A stretch of DNA of 38,175 bases, taken from positions 1-38,175 of IMG/VR virus record IMGVR_UViG_3300010293_000015; one strand, given 5' to 3'. Under the pieces are notes generated by a model. The model was not told the origin of the DNA and did not search any database. It saw only the letters and a program-made list of their open reading frames with translations. The position numbers and the translations under genes were made by a program. Shown one piece after another: positions 1,225-14,803 of the stretch. This DNA is from a virus. Every line of letters begins with the position of its first letter. Within the stretch, counting starts at the first letter, position 1.

Positions 1225-2967
1225 ATGATTGCCGACGATACCTACACCTGGGCATATGTAGCAAGCGGGACGAATGACACCTTCCCTTATACCCGGAAAA
1301 TCTTCGACGACGACGACCTACGGGTTTACGTTGACGATGTTCTACAGACCAAGGGTACTCATTATGGAGTGACTGGGGTTCTGGACAACGACGGGGGAAA
1401 CGTGGTCTTCGAGGCGGCTTACATCCCGGCTGCATCCGCCGAAGTTAGGATCGTCCGGGCGGTTCCCAATACCCAGGAGCAGGACTGGCAGGAGAACGAC
1501 TTCAACCCGGCTACCAGGTTTGAGGATGGGTTGGACCGAGTTACGGTACAGGTTCAGCAGCTTCGGAACGACATTGACGATTTGGTTGTGGGAGACATCC
1601 CCGTCCCCGTGGCCGTTGACCATGGGGGGACCGGGGCCGTAGACGCATCGACTGCTCGGGATAACTTGGGTTTGGCAATAGGATCCGATGTTCAAGAATA
1701 TGATGCAGTTTTAGACACCCCCACGGCAACACCCGCGGCATCGGTTATCCCGGTAGCTAAACCAACGGGGGTCCTCGCGGAAGGCTGGATGCCCAGGAAG
1801 CCGGGACATAATCTCCTAGTAAACAGCAGTTTCGGGGTATGCTGCGGACTCGCCGGAAAATATTACGGAACGGTTATCGCTTGCACCGGGTTTGATGTTA
1901 ACTCAAACACCCCGAAATTTTATACCTCAAATTATCAAGATATCGAGGTGGGGAGTCTAGTCTTTGTGGCTACCACCGTTTCCGGGCTCAATAACTGCGC
2001 GAAGATGGTGACCGCAGTGGTTCCCGGAGTGAGTTTTACTGTCCAAATGGAGGGGGCCGCGCTTTCGCCCAATCCATCCAAAGCGGTGAATGTATTTGAG
2101 TTGTGGCCCGGGGATACAACCGGAAGCACTGGGGACGGTCCGGACTGGTGGACCAAATCCGTAACGCTTCGTTGCTGGCGGCGATGGAAGCCTGCCCTAG
2201 CCCGGGACGGAGGAAGCCCTTATGTGATGATCCTCAAAAAAGGATCGGGCTCGACCGAGTATTTTTATCAGGAAATTTTTAAATCGTCCTGGCCTGAACG
2301 GCTGCGAAAATATGCCGGGAGAACCATTACCTTTGGGATGTGGGTATACCCGAAAGCGGCTATGAATTCCTGCGACATTTATATTTCGGATGGCGTGACC
2401 ACGACCAAGAGCGCGACGGCAACCGGAGGGGGATGGACCTGGCTGGAGGTTACGGCTGACATCGGGGCGTATTCCTCAATCACTAAAATCCAGTTTGTCC
2501 TGGAAATTATAGGTTCCGCCAATGACGAAATCTATGCCACAAGCCCGATTGCCATTTTGGGCCATGAGATCGGCGAGGGTAATTACTTCCAACCACCCGG
2601 TGAAGTCGTCCCCTGCATTGTCCATATGACCCCTCCTACCTACCATGGAGCATCCGTTTCCAGCAATCGTTGGATCAGGTTCGAGCAGGAGAACAACGGG
2701 CAGTTTCCCAAAGAGGCAAAAGGAATCTTCTTTGCGTTAGAGGGAATTAACGATACCAAAACTAACGAAATGTGGGTATCAACCAATTCCACCGCCCCGG
2801 AGATAACCCAAATGGTATTATGCAACAATACCGGTGCAGGAAACAAACAGAATAGGATTTCCTATTATCCTTTCCACTTTCCGTCAAGGCTTTATCTGGG
2901 AGTAACCGGCGGATCTGCTGCGTGGTATGCGGTAAACATCGACATTGCAGCGATAGAGATATTTTAA
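1225..2967 (+). CDS. Tail fibre protein with T7 gp17-like N-terminal attachment domain
   Basis: 580 residues. Residues 1-125 resemble the virion-attachment domain of T7-type tail fibres: a YTWAYVASGTNDTFPY start, a DDLRVYVDDVLQ strand, and NPATRFEDGLDRVTVQVQQL near 95-115. A short linker with VDHGGTGA and ARDNLGL (about 132-152) is typical of fibre shafts. The rest is beta-rich and resembles a carbohydrate-binding jelly roll around 360-440 (RTITFGMWVYPKA, GGGWTWLEVTADI). This is the likely receptor-binding part. The start ATG follows a GTGAGGA ribosome site overlapping the stop region of the upstream gene. Chaperone or depolymerase activity is not evident. Confidence 0.85.
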   Translation: MIADDTYTWAYVASGTNDTFPYTRKIFDDDDLRVYVDDVLQTKGTHYGVTGVLDNDGGNVVFEAAYIPAASAEVRIVRAVPNTQEQDWQENDFNPATRFEDGLDRVTVQVQQLRNDIDDLVVGDIPVPVAVDHGGTGAVDASTARDNLGLAIGSDVQEYDAVLDTPTATPAASVIPVAKPTGVLAEGWMPRKPGHNLLVNSSFGVCCGLAGKYYGTVIACTGFDVNSNTPKFYTSNYQDIEVGSLVFVATTVSGLNNCAKMVTAVVPGVSFTVQMEGAALSPNPSKAVNVFELWPGDTTGSTGDGPDWWTKSVTLRCWRRWKPALARDGGSPYVMILKKGSGSTEYFYQEIFKSSWPERLRKYAGRTITFGMWVYPKAAMNSCDIYISDGVTTTKSATATGGGWTWLEVTADIGAYSSITKIQFVLEIIGSANDEIYATSPIAILGHEIGEGNYFQPPGEVVPCIVHMTPPTYHGASVSSNRWIRFEQENNGQFPKEAKGIFFALEGINDTKTNEMWVSTNSTAPEITQMVLCNNTGAGNKQNRISYYPFHFPSRLYLGVTGGSAAWYAVNIDIAAIEIF

Positions 2968-2984
2968 CGCCTGGAAAGGAGTAG

Positions 2985-3254
2985 TCAGCGGTCGAGAAAC
3001 TTCTTTTCAATCTCCCGGGCGAACTCATCCAGGCTATCACCCCAGGCCGCCCGGAACCATGCTTTCAGCAGCCAGATTTTGACTTCCTCATGGGCCAGCC
3101 GCCGGCCAATGGACCTCTCGAAATCCTCCAGCCTGATTGCCCACTCGTCCCTCACCTTTTTCTTCGCCGCCCGGGAATCCTTGCATAAAGAATAAATGAG
3201 GGCCGCACCCAGGGGCACCAGGAAGATCATCAGGATCAGGGGGAGGGAGCTCAT
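2985..3254 (-). CDS. Small one-TM protein, the only convincing reverse-strand gene
   Basis: 89 residues from the ATG at 3254. Residues 4-23 (LPLILMIFLVPLGAALIYSL) form one membrane helix. The rest is charged and helical (RAAKKKVRDEW, DEFAREIEKKF) and probably faces the cytoplasm. No family is recognised. The frame is open further upstream, but the 3254 ATG lies 6 bases after a perfect TATAAT, so transcription would start at about the A of the ATG. There is no Shine-Dalgarno sequence, so the message is probably leaderless. Being opposite to all other genes and having its own promoter suggests an accessory gene expressed separately from the lytic programme, such as superinfection exclusion. That role is inference. 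Confidence 0.6.
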   Translation of the reverse strand: MSSLPLILMIFLVPLGAALIYSLCKDSRAAKKKVRDEWAIRLEDFERSIGRRLAHEEVKIWLLKAWFRAAWGDSLDEFAREIEKKFLDR

Positions 3255-3260
3255 GAAAAA

Positions 3261-3289
3261 ATTATAGCATGAAAGAAAATGCTTGACAA
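3261..3289 (-). promoter_or_regulatory. Sigma70 promoter for the reverse-strand gene
   Basis: Read on the reverse strand: TTGTCA (3289-3284), 17-base spacer, TATAAT (3266-3261). The expected start is near 3254, the first base of the ATG. Its -35 box overlaps that of the forward promoter at 3283-3288 almost completely, because TTGACAA and TTGTCAA are complements. Confidence 0.65.
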
Positions 3290-3311
3290 ATGTTTTTTCT
3301 TGGTTTAAAGT
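3283..3311 (+). promoter_or_regulatory. Sigma70 promoter for the small RNA
   Basis: TTGACA (3283-3288), 17-base spacer, TAAAGT (3306-3311). The -35 is perfect and the -10 matches at four of six positions. The expected start is near 3318. It is back to back with the reverse promoter and shares its -35 bases, so polymerase can occupy only one of the two at a time. Confidence 0.55.
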
Positions 3312-3317
3312 GATATA

Positions 3318-3476
3318 TAGGAGCGGGCGATAGCCTGCACGTAGTTCAATTTGTGGGGGGGACGCCGCCACGTCCCCCCCGCTGCCTTGGCGGAGGCGAG
3401 TTGTTTAAGAACCAAATTTCATTGAACTTTTCAATTTCCCCGGTTGACCTTCACAGGTTGGCCGGGGTTTTTTTTT
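3318..3476 (+). ncRNA. Candidate small RNA gene with own promoter and terminator
   Basis: About 159 bases between a sigma70 promoter and a strong intrinsic terminator, with no plausible reading frame. It folds into clear parts. Hairpin one has a 6-bp stem (3323-3328 with 3333-3338) and a GATA loop. A 7-bp outer stem (GTTCAAT 3344-3350 with ATTGAAC 3421-3427) encloses a 10-bp G-rich hairpin (3355-3364 with 3371-3380). The terminator hairpin follows. The layout is that of a stand-alone regulatory RNA. It could instead be an attenuated leader for genes beyond 3.8 kb. No known RNA family is recognised. Confidence 0.55.
3438..3476 (+). terminator. Intrinsic terminator of the small RNA
   Basis: A 12-bp stem (3438-3449 with 3456-3467, several G-U pairs), six-base loop TTCACA, then nine T residues (3468-3476). 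Confidence 0.8.
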
Positions 3477-3800
3477 GCCATTTGCTAAGGAACTACGCCT
3501 TGAGACATCTGGCAAAAGGCCATGCTGGATCAGTTCACGGGTGGCGGCATGGCTTTATTTTGCGCTACCACGCGAAACCAGAAGCGCACCGGGCAAGTCT
3601 AAAAAGCATCACCCGGTAAAGGTGGGCGGGAAAGTAGAGCCCGAAAGGATACGCTGAAGCCGCTTCATTCTACTTGGTAAGCGGCCGATGCCTGCGACGA
3701 CGGCTCCATACCAGGGCGGACGATCAAAGGCGGGGAAAGACTAAACCGTTTAAAACAAACGGGAATAGTCTTTTCTCGCCCACTCAGACTCACCACCCAG
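3477..3800 (+). other. Hairpin-rich stretch without a gene; possible structured RNA
   Basis: No convincing gene is seen. Successive perfect stems occur: GCCATGC/GCATGGC, GCGC/GCGC, ACCGGG/CCCGGT, GGGC/GCCC, GCCGCTT/AAGCGGC, and a long hairpin at 3729-3780 (about 15 + 8 bp around an AAAA loop, then a CGCC end). The density is higher than in the other intergenic gaps here, and the strand cannot be fixed. I could not match it to tmRNA, RNase P RNA, a group I intron or known large phage RNAs. No promoter was found directly upstream of it after the terminator. Confidence 0.35.
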
Positions 3801-3844
3801 GGCAGTTAAGAAAGAAGGAAGAATAAATAAAGAATGGGGGTTCT

Positions 3845-4027
3845 ATGGTTAGGTGGGATAAGATAAAGGTTGAAAAAGAAATAAACTGTTTGCGGTGTGG
3901 CGGAAAAATTTTGGCCGGGGAGGAGGCTTTTAAAAAGTCTGGAGTTATTCAGATTGACCGATACGAAAAAGGAAAGGATGAACTCGAAGAAAATTTTTTT
4001 CATGCTTACCATTTTTTACTCCGGTAG
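3845..4027 (+). CDS. Hypothetical 60-residue protein with a CxxC knuckle
   Basis: The sequence has one zinc-knuckle-like pair (CLRCGG, residues 14-19), a charged middle (DRYEKGKDELEE) and an aromatic/His-rich end (FFHAYHFLL). A second Cys pair is missing, so any metal site would use the His residues or a dimer. The region is more AT-rich than most of the genome. A GGGGG run precedes the ATG. It lies between the hairpin-rich stretch and the XRE operator region. No function can be assigned. Confidence 0.55.
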   Translation: MVRWDKIKVEKEINCLRCGGKILAGEEAFKKSGVIQIDRYEKGKDELEENFFHAYHFLLR

Positions 4028-4084: not shown

Positions 4085-4127
4085 CGAACGAACGCTCGTT
4101 CGGTCGATTTATGTCTGTTTACAGACA
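4085..4127. promoter_or_regulatory. Two palindromic operators upstream of the XRE regulator
   Basis: First palindrome: CGAACGA (4085-4091), 4-base spacer, TCGTTCG (4096-4102). Second: TGTCTGT (4112-4118), TT, ACAGACA (4121-4127). Both have perfect 7-base arms and lie just upstream of the promoter for the XRE gene. They are likely binding sites for that regulator or a host repressor. The two sequences differ, which suggests two different binders. Confidence 0.5.
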
Positions 4128-4203: not shown

Positions 4204-4404
4204 ATGATTGATATTTTAGAGATTAGGAAAAAACTTGGATGGAGTAGGGAGAAATTGGCCTCAGAAATGGGGGTCAGTTATTTTACTATTCAGAACTGGG
4301 AATTGGGGCAGAACCACCCTAGCCCCCTTGCCGAGAATAGGATTAAGGATATTCTCAAAAAGGAGCTTCCCCATGGCCATCAAGGCCCTACAGGACGAAG
4401 TTGA
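4204..4404 (+). CDS. Small XRE-family helix-turn-helix regulator
   Basis: 66 residues, nearly all one HTH domain: LEIRKKLGWSREKLASEMG, then VSYFTIQNWELGQNHPS as the recognition helix and following loop. This is the length of a minimal Cro-like protein. An upstream GTG at 4156 is in frame, but the ATG at 4204 has AAGGGG about ten bases before it and starts exactly at the domain, so it is preferred. Palindromes at 4085-4127 are candidate operators. No second repressor gene is seen beside it, so it may be a single early switch rather than part of a CI/Cro pair. Its end overlaps the next gene. Confidence 0.8.
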   Translation: MIDILEIRKKLGWSREKLASEMGVSYFTIQNWELGQNHPSPLAENRIKDILKKELPHGHQGPTGRS

Positions 4405-4776: not shown

Positions 4777-4911
4777 CTGGAGAGCTTCGAGAAGGACCCG
4801 GATCCCCGGGGGGAGACTGAGGAGGAATACCTTGAATACCGGGCCAGGGAACAGGCCAAAATCGATGCCTGGGAAGAGGAAAGGAAGGGGGAGAGGAAAT
4901 GGAAGAGTTAG
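4777..4911 (+). CDS. Small charged protein with no standard start codon
   Basis: The frame is open from 4756 to the TAG at 4909-4911 and reads LESFEKDPDPRGETEEEY... with heavily charged helical composition, unlike noise in this GC range. There is no ATG, GTG or TTG. The only candidate is CTG at 4777, three bases after an AAAGGAGG site, which is too close. It overlaps the start of the next gene by 13 bases, as neighbours here do. Either a rare start is used, a base has been lost near 4774, or the gene is decaying. Confidence 0.35.
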   Translation: MESFEKDPDPRGETEEEYLEYRAREQAKIDAWEEERKGERKWKS

Positions 4912-5762
4912 CGAGGTATGAAGCGCCAGGAATGGATCTTGCCAGGAAGCCGGAAGAGGTTTTGACGCAAGCGAAAGAGGCGGCAAAGGCTCTGCAAGGG
5001 GTGATTTCAAGCAAGGCCAAGAAGGTCATTATTAGCGGGGAGCAGTACCTTGAATTTGAGGACTGGCAGACGGTTGGCCGGTTTTACGGGGTAACTGCCA
5101 AGGTTATGTCAACGCAGTTTATTGACATCGGAGGGGTACAGGGATTTGAGGCGCGGGCCGTTGCAATCCGAAACGTGGACGGGATGGAACTTTCCGGGGC
5201 AGATGCCATGTGTCTGAACGACGAGACGAACTGGAAGAATCGTCCCCTATTCATGCTGAGATCTATGGCCCAAACAAGGGCCTGCGCTAAATCACTCAGA
5301 AACGTCCTTGCCTGGGTTGTGGTACTAGCCGGATACCGACCTACGCCAGCCGAGGAAATGGAAGGGGTTGGAGATCGGAAGCCTCCCCTCCAGGAACCCC
5401 AGAAGAAACAATCCCCGCCGGCGGAAGCCCCAATGAATAGTGGGGATATTGGTTGGTCTAGAGAGAAAAAGACCATCGTTTCCCCTATCCTGAAAACCGC
5501 CGCGGTAGAGTACAAGAAGAAGAAGGATGGCAAGGAGACCGAGGAGAAGGGGATCTTCTACAGGATCACTTACACCGACGAGAACGGGAACGAGGCTTCG
5601 ATGTCCACGTTTTCCGAATCCCTGTTCAAAGAGGCCAGCCAAGAAGAGGGGACCAACGTCCCCATGGTCCTGGGGTGGAAGCCTGGGTTTAAACCGGGAA
5701 CCCGGGAACTGGTATCCGTGGCTCGGTTGGAATTTTCATTAGTTATTCCCTGCCGAAGCTGA
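4899..5762 (+). CDS. Putative phage single-strand annealing/recombination protein
   Basis: 287 residues. The core (about 30-155) contains SMAQTRACAKSLRNVLAWVV followed by LAGYRPTPAEEM. From memory this is a well-conserved phage motif in proteins encoded beside exonucleases and generally thought to be recombination or annealing factors. Residues 160-190 are a Pro-rich linker, and the C-terminal 90 residues (GIFYRITYTDENGNEASMS) look like a small beta barrel. The next gene is a RecB-like nuclease, fitting a RecE/RecT or Exo/Bet arrangement. The ATG overlaps the preceding small frame and has GGGGGAGAGG upstream. The annealing activity is inferred from context. Confidence 0.6.
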   Translation: MEELARYEAPGMDLARKPEEVLTQAKEAAKALQGVISSKAKKVIISGEQYLEFEDWQTVGRFYGVTAKVMSTQFIDIGGVQGFEARAVAIRNVDGMELSGADAMCLNDETNWKNRPLFMLRSMAQTRACAKSLRNVLAWVVVLAGYRPTPAEEMEGVGDRKPPLQEPQKKQSPPAEAPMNSGDIGWSREKKTIVSPILKTAAVEYKKKKDGKETEEKGIFYRITYTDENGNEASMSTFSESLFKEASQEEGTNVPMVLGWKPGFKPGTRELVSVARLEFSLVIPCRS

Positions 5763-9378: not shown

Positions 9379-9456
9379 CCCTTGCGCCTGGTCCTGCGAC
9401 TGCACGCGGCAGGTAGTTTACGGGTCGGACAGAAGACGGCCAGGGCTGGGTGCAAT
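9379..9456 (+). ncRNA. Structured repeat element, copy 1
   Basis: Starts right after a TAA stop. A 15-bp closing stem pairs 9382-9396 with 9441-9455 with no mismatch (four G-U). The enclosed region contains GGGTCGGACAGAAGACG (9422-9438), identical in copy 2 at 10328-10344, and an extra small CCTGC/GCAGG hairpin insert absent from copy 2. Five of the 15 pairs differ between copies, all by changes that keep pairing. This points to a functional RNA (antitermination, processing or binding site); no known family matched. Confidence 0.6.
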
Positions 9457-9955: not shown

Positions 9956-10294
9956 ATGAAAAGAAAAGTCATAACCGAGGCCAATGTATTAAAGGCAATC
10001 CGGGATTACCTGGACGCAAAAGGGGTTGTCTACATCCGAAATAATTCTGGGGCGGTAGTAGGGGAACATAAGGGGAAGAAAAGATTTTTCCGTTTTGGTT
10101 CTCCGGGGTCCGCTGACCTAATCGGATGCAGTTCCTCGGGGAGATTTTGGGCCTGTGAGGTTAAGGCACCGGGCAAAAAGGCAACAAAAGAGCAAATGGA
10201 ATGGCTGGTGAATGTGCGTATAAATGACGGATATTCTATTTGGGTTGATAATGTTGACGGGTTTATTAATTGGTTTGAAAATTGGGTTAAATAA
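9956..10294 (+). CDS. VRR-NUC domain nuclease
   Basis: 112 residues. GSPGSADLIG (Asp54), FWACEVKAPGKK (Glu68, Lys70) and the Gln at 80 match the VRR-NUC family of PD-(D/E)XK nucleases. In phages these stand alone and are associated with cutting branched or flap DNA. A typical start (EANVLKAIRDYLDAKG) is present, so the protein is full length. GAGGAGGGG precedes the ATG. It is followed directly by copy 2 of the structured element. Confidence 0.85.
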   Translation: MKRKVITEANVLKAIRDYLDAKGVVYIRNNSGAVVGEHKGKKRFFRFGSPGSADLIGCSSSGRFWACEVKAPGKKATKEQMEWLVNVRINDGYSIWVDNVDGFINWFENWVK

Positions 10295-10362
10295 CCCTTG
10301 CGCCCGGCCCTGCGGTAGGTTTTTTGTGGGTCGGACAGAAGACGTCCAGGGTTGGGCGCGAT
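10295..10362 (+). ncRNA. Structured repeat element, copy 2
   Basis: Directly after the TAA of the VRR-NUC gene. The 15-bp stem pairs 10298-10312 with 10347-10361 with no mismatch. It shares the 17-base core (10328-10344) with copy 1 about 0.9 kb upstream but lacks the small inner hairpin. See copy 1 for the comparison. Confidence 0.6.
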
Positions 10363-14667: not shown

Positions 14668-14696
14668 TTGACAGGACCCCATAAAACTCATATAAT
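14668..14696 (+). promoter_or_regulatory. Perfect-consensus sigma70 promoter
   Basis: TTGACA (14668-14673), 17-base spacer, TATAAT (14691-14696). Both boxes and the spacing match the consensus exactly. The expected start at about 14702 coincides with the first bases of a folded leader. Confidence 0.85.
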
Positions 14697-14700
14697 TTTC

Positions 14701-14803
14701 GTAGGTGGCTTATCTCCGGGTAGCTCCCGGGGAGACAGCCCCAGCTCCTGGAGGGTTGCCACCTACCTACCTAAAAAAGTTATCCAGGGCCACAGGAGAA
14801 AAA
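14701..14803 (+). promoter_or_regulatory. Branched 5' leader of the DUF559 gene (riboswitch-like)
   Basis: A closing stem GTAGGTGGC (14701-14709) with GCCACCTAC (14758-14766) encloses two hairpins: a TCTCCGGG/CCCGG-GGAGA arm and a CCAG-CTC-CTGG arm, giving a three-way junction. A further CTAC repeat just after the stem could compete for the 5' strand. The ribosome site (AGGAG) lies about 30 bases downstream. It may be a regulatory leader or a processed small RNA. No known riboswitch class matched. Confidence 0.5.

Follow-up and report, generated by a model that had tools for sequence, protein, structure and literature searches.

In the analysed window, the 38,175-base record of an uncultivated virus, two predicted divergent sigma70-type promoters share a single -35 box where the late (tail) module of a phage meets the early (regulator, recombination) one. 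The promoter pair is of unusual quality, beyond chance. Its arms are unequal: the reverse one is strong and the forward one weaker. The reverse arm, with its predicted promoter and ORF, is likely to be functional, and for the forward arm, a predicted promoter, function is plausible. The locus is best explained, with confidence slightly short of even, as a promoter hub for the host RNA polymerase, from which a leaderless mRNA for a membrane protein would be transcribed in reverse and a terminated RNA of ~158 nt forward, the two outputs being weakly coupled.

Genomic Setting of the Locus

The gene content of the window is that of a podovirus-like phage. Its products include a terminase, a head-tail adaptor, the major head protein, tail tube proteins, a large LPD38 protein, a tail fibre, an endolysin, a primase/helicase, DNA methyltransferases and exonucleases, and all genes assigned to a family are carried by the + strand. 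Neither a phage RNA polymerase nor an integrase was found among the phage products scanned. The features of the locus and its neighbours are collected in Table 1.

Table 1. Coordinates of the promoter locus and of the neighbouring genes (positions in the window).
Feature	Position	Strand	Properties
Tail-fibre gene	end 2967	+	upstream neighbour of the promoter locus
Lone reverse ORF	2985-3254	-	89 aa; one N-terminal membrane helix, then charged helices
Reverse -10, TATAAT	3266-3261	-	6/6; TG in the extended -10 position; promoter 11/12
Shared -35 box, TTGACAA	3283-3289	both	TTGACA on +, TTGTCA on -
Reverse -35, TTGTCA	3289-3284	-	17-nt spacer to the -10
Forward -35, TTGACA	3283-3288	+	perfect consensus
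Forward -10, TAAAGT	3306-3311	+	17-nt spacer; 4/6 alone; promoter 10/12
Predicted structured RNA	3318-3476	+	~157-159 nt; fold z -6.0
Intrinsic terminator	3438-3476	+	13-pair stem (3438-3467), then nine T (U in RNA)
Small ORF	3845-4027		early gene, downstream of the promoter locus
HTH regulator gene	4204-4404		early gene, downstream of the promoter locus
Recombination-type genes	from 4899		early region; exonuclease genes downstream of the promoter locus

Two palindromes, CGAACGAACGCTCGTTCG and TGTCTGTTTACAGACA (4085-4102 and 4112-4127), are located upstream of the HTH gene and are perhaps its operators.

The Shared -35 Box and the Predicted Promoter Pair

The original prediction, that TTGACAA serves as the -35 element on both strands with 17-base spacers, proved exact in its coordinates. 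Two good hexamer pairs, opposed and overlapping, with spacers within 16-18 nt, are present, and their summed score is 21/24. Across the 118 loci of related phages that were scanned (1.19 Mb), the best pair with overlapping -35 elements scores 19, and no pair above 19 was obtained in 60 shuffles of the window (2.3 Mb) or in 2000 shuffles of the local 400 nt. In the genome-wide ranking, one promoter stands above both arms (12/12, at 14668), and four others tie with the forward promoter. The former is a perfect sigma70 promoter, TTGACA-17-TATAAT (14668-14703), situated before a gene with weak endonuclease-type matches. All promoters were scored against the sigma70 consensus, which is assumed to be valid for whichever host the phage infects.

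TTGACAA is nearly identical to its own reverse complement, so that a second -35 element comes free with one selected promoter. With a local A+T content of 76-79%, a -10 as good as the forward one (4/6) is expected by chance in ~21% of such flanks, versus ~0.9% for a 6/6 element like the reverse one. Dyad symmetry beyond the shared box is not significant (P 0.23).

The reverse start is predicted at A3254, with which the reverse ATG begins. The forward start, originally placed near 3318, is predicted at ~3317-3319; the region holds, while 3318 itself is a T flanked by the purines A3317 and A3319. The predicted starts are thus ~64 bp apart (3254 versus ~3318). The arrangement of divergent promoters on one box is tidy yet broadly familiar, and its mechanism is ordinary. 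A literature search for promoters with a common -35 box returned nothing usable within the wording searched.

The Reverse Gene

The lone reverse gene for a membrane protein, as first described, is upheld by its codon use and by its single N-terminal membrane helix (peak hydropathy 2.48). The codon score of the ORF, 0.234, resembles those of known phage genes; non-coding phases average -0.08, and none of 1055 non-coding-phase windows reaches the value. Codon use in the upstream extension of the ORF (3255-3371) is non-coding. The ATG lies seven bases past the -10, with its A as the first purine at that point. It is not preceded by a Shine-Dalgarno sequence, in contrast to several other genes of the phage. 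Since the ATG falls on the predicted +1 and a Shine-Dalgarno sequence is absent, the reverse mRNA is probably leaderless, with leaderless use by the host being assumed; this reading also gives independent support to the assignment of the reverse promoter. No good terminator for the reverse mRNA is evident.

The structural model of the protein consists of helices 4-23, 28-49, 56-70 and 75-87 and is of low confidence (mean pLDDT 62). Homologues were found neither in viral contigs, genomes and phages nor in PHROGs, Pfam, NCBIfam, PADLOC and PDB, the collection scans being based on exact 8-residue peptides, which distant relatives may escape. A match in a Nitrospirae MAG (34% over residues 22-89, E 0.008) is weak and was not considered convincing.

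The Predicted Forward RNA and Its Terminator

The stretch downstream of the forward promoter is structured even with the terminator hairpin removed (z -4.2 versus shuffles). The terminator itself, present in both the minimum-energy and the centroid folds, is the sole strong one in the genome, far ahead of the others, and the first strong one on the + strand past the tail genes. No Rfam family reaches the gathering threshold in this stretch, and the matches below it are at chance level. Of the proposed discrete terminated RNA, the structured stretch and the strong terminator are borne out; discreteness is a matter of interpretation, and the terminator may instead end the late operon.

Other candidate structured elements occur in the window. 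The ~360 nt at 3480-3840 are apparently non-coding and moderately structured (z -2.2), with a long hairpin at ~3730-3785; an Rfam search of this stretch gave no match. Two copies of a 70-80 nt element (9379-9456 and 10294-10362), each located right after an ORF stop codon, form a long hairpin when folded (z -2.0 and -4.7, respectively) and display apparent paired changes together with an invariant GGGTCGGACAGAAGACG. The sole outside match to the GGGTCGGACAGAAGACG core was attributed to chance.

Distribution among Related Phages

Relatives of the phage were sought via the LPD38 protein (80 viral loci, with identities of at most 55%, plus 6 in bacterial genomes), via the early protein encoded at 4899-5762 (37 loci, up to 73% over part of its length) and via the HTH protein. 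Neither the reverse gene nor the RNA nor the promoter is convincingly matched in any of these related loci. Comparison of the intergenic DNA with phages, plasmids, viral contigs and related records gave only promoter-like or short chance matches. The locus is thus private to this phage within the data searched, and conservation does not decide between the readings; its absence elsewhere was not counted as decay, given the large distance between the phages and the fragmentary state of many records.

The description of the locus as an accessory island fits this lack of homologues and is not proven by it. As regards the properties of a moron, an own promoter is present, the reverse mRNA is without a good terminator, and no convincing match occurs in 29 records with related genes, which are mostly fragments or only partly related.

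Proposed Mechanism

According to the preferred explanation, the reverse promoter could be transcribed by the host sigma70 polymerase with no phage factor, perhaps early or continuously in infection. The leaderless reverse mRNA would encode a small membrane-anchored accessory protein, and the forward promoter would yield a structured, terminated RNA. The two outputs would be coupled weakly by polymerases taking turns at the common -35 box. The terminator could also halt late transcription entering from the tail genes; such a late transcript would cross the reverse gene in the antisense direction and depress its output at the late stage. The tail protein upstream, the HTH and exonuclease genes downstream and the lack of a phage RNA polymerase among the products scanned are in agreement with this explanation. 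It is weakened by the poor forward -10, by the lack of an evident terminator for the reverse mRNA and by the failure to find relatives for any of the three parts (gene, RNA and promoter).

Should both promoters fire, the locus would be a clean natural case of two strong promoters tied by one -35 element rather than by a -10, useful for measuring polymerase competition, and in it an uncultivated phage would combine two orphans, a membrane protein and a structured RNA. Should the reverse promoter alone fire, what remains is an ordinary accessory gene next to a late terminator.

Alternative Explanations

The latter case is the most serious rival, although it is considered unlikely. Here the forward -10 would be a side effect of AT-rich DNA and of a -35 that nearly complements itself, no discrete RNA would be formed, and the stretch would represent the 3′ end of a late transcript, antisense to the reverse gene and ended by the terminator. 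The chance frequency of such a forward -10 speaks for it, as do the location of the single strong + strand terminator, after the last tail gene and before the early genes, and the lack of any other strong one on this strand at 2967-3438. The perfect forward -35 and the unusual structure of the stretch ahead of the terminator argue the other way. Alternatively, and with distinctly lower probability, the forward transcript could be the leader of the early operon, with the terminator acting as an attenuator and 3480-3840 as further leader RNA. The forward promoter is indeed the best-scoring one upstream of the early genes, and 3480-3840 is non-coding and somewhat structured; against this stand the great strength of the terminator, which forms in both folds, and the separate operator-like palindromes of the HTH gene (4085-4127), with a promoter-like stretch behind them.

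Two improbable explanations invoke pairing of the RNA with the reverse mRNA. In the first, a type I toxin-antitoxin-like pair, the RNA would bind the mRNA and silence a membrane toxin; in the other, marginally less probable still, an RNA-controlled toxin or exclusion locus would alternate, through the -35 box, between the leaderless mRNA and the RNA that pairs with it. Between RNA positions 3427-3443 and reverse mRNA 3019-3003, 16 of 17 positions are complementary, with one G-U. When the linker 3398-3443 is the query, no other trans site on either genome strand scores as high (33.5 against 27), and none of 400 shuffles reaches this score, the linker having been picked after the match was seen. 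With the whole RNA as query, 14 of 400 shuffles equal the pairing and other sites rank higher. Opening both sites is estimated to cost ~31 kcal/mol versus -20.9 gained, and the site is close to the ORF's 3′ terminus. Usual type I toxins are also shorter than the 89-aa reverse protein. The pairing is a lead only, suggestive by sequence and disfavoured by the accessibility estimate. Least probable of all is a bistable switch with mutually exclusive outputs. Binding at the shared box is exclusive by geometry, one polymerase at a time, and to this extent the proposed exclusion of outputs holds; a shared box alone, however, means turn-taking, and a switch requires feedback or an operator. No palindrome with 6-bp arms exists in 3240-3340, an operator-like site at the box thus being absent, and feedback is unsupported. 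Among bidirectional promoters of E. coli, the five tested fire too weakly at the basal level to compete, and competition was seen only after one side had been strongly activated (PMC12825309). The "switch-like" character is therefore not supported.

Comparison with Known Systems

Divergent type I loci of the tisB/istR type resemble the present locus in that a small RNA diverges from a small membrane-protein gene with which it has partial complementarity. In contrast, the candidate pairing here is located towards the 3′ end of the ORF and is disfavoured by the accessibility estimate, and the protein of 89 aa has a large charged part. With lambda PRM/PR the locus shares divergent host-polymerase promoters at a phage module boundary. 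It differs in that neither an operator-like site nor a repressor gene is present at the box, and the products are a structured RNA and a membrane protein; the operators that a lambda-like switch, with its product feedback, has between its divergent promoters are without a counterpart among palindromes with 6-bp arms in 3240-3340. A further likeness in architecture is to the bidirectional promoters of E. coli and Salmonella (PMC12825309, PMC10268837), which are likewise divergent sigma70 promoters with a near-symmetric element and exclusive binding. In those promoters the -10 is common and the starts are 7-25 bp apart, as required by the definition of PMC10268837, whereas the pair described here lies outside that definition, with a common -35 and starts separated by ~64 bp.
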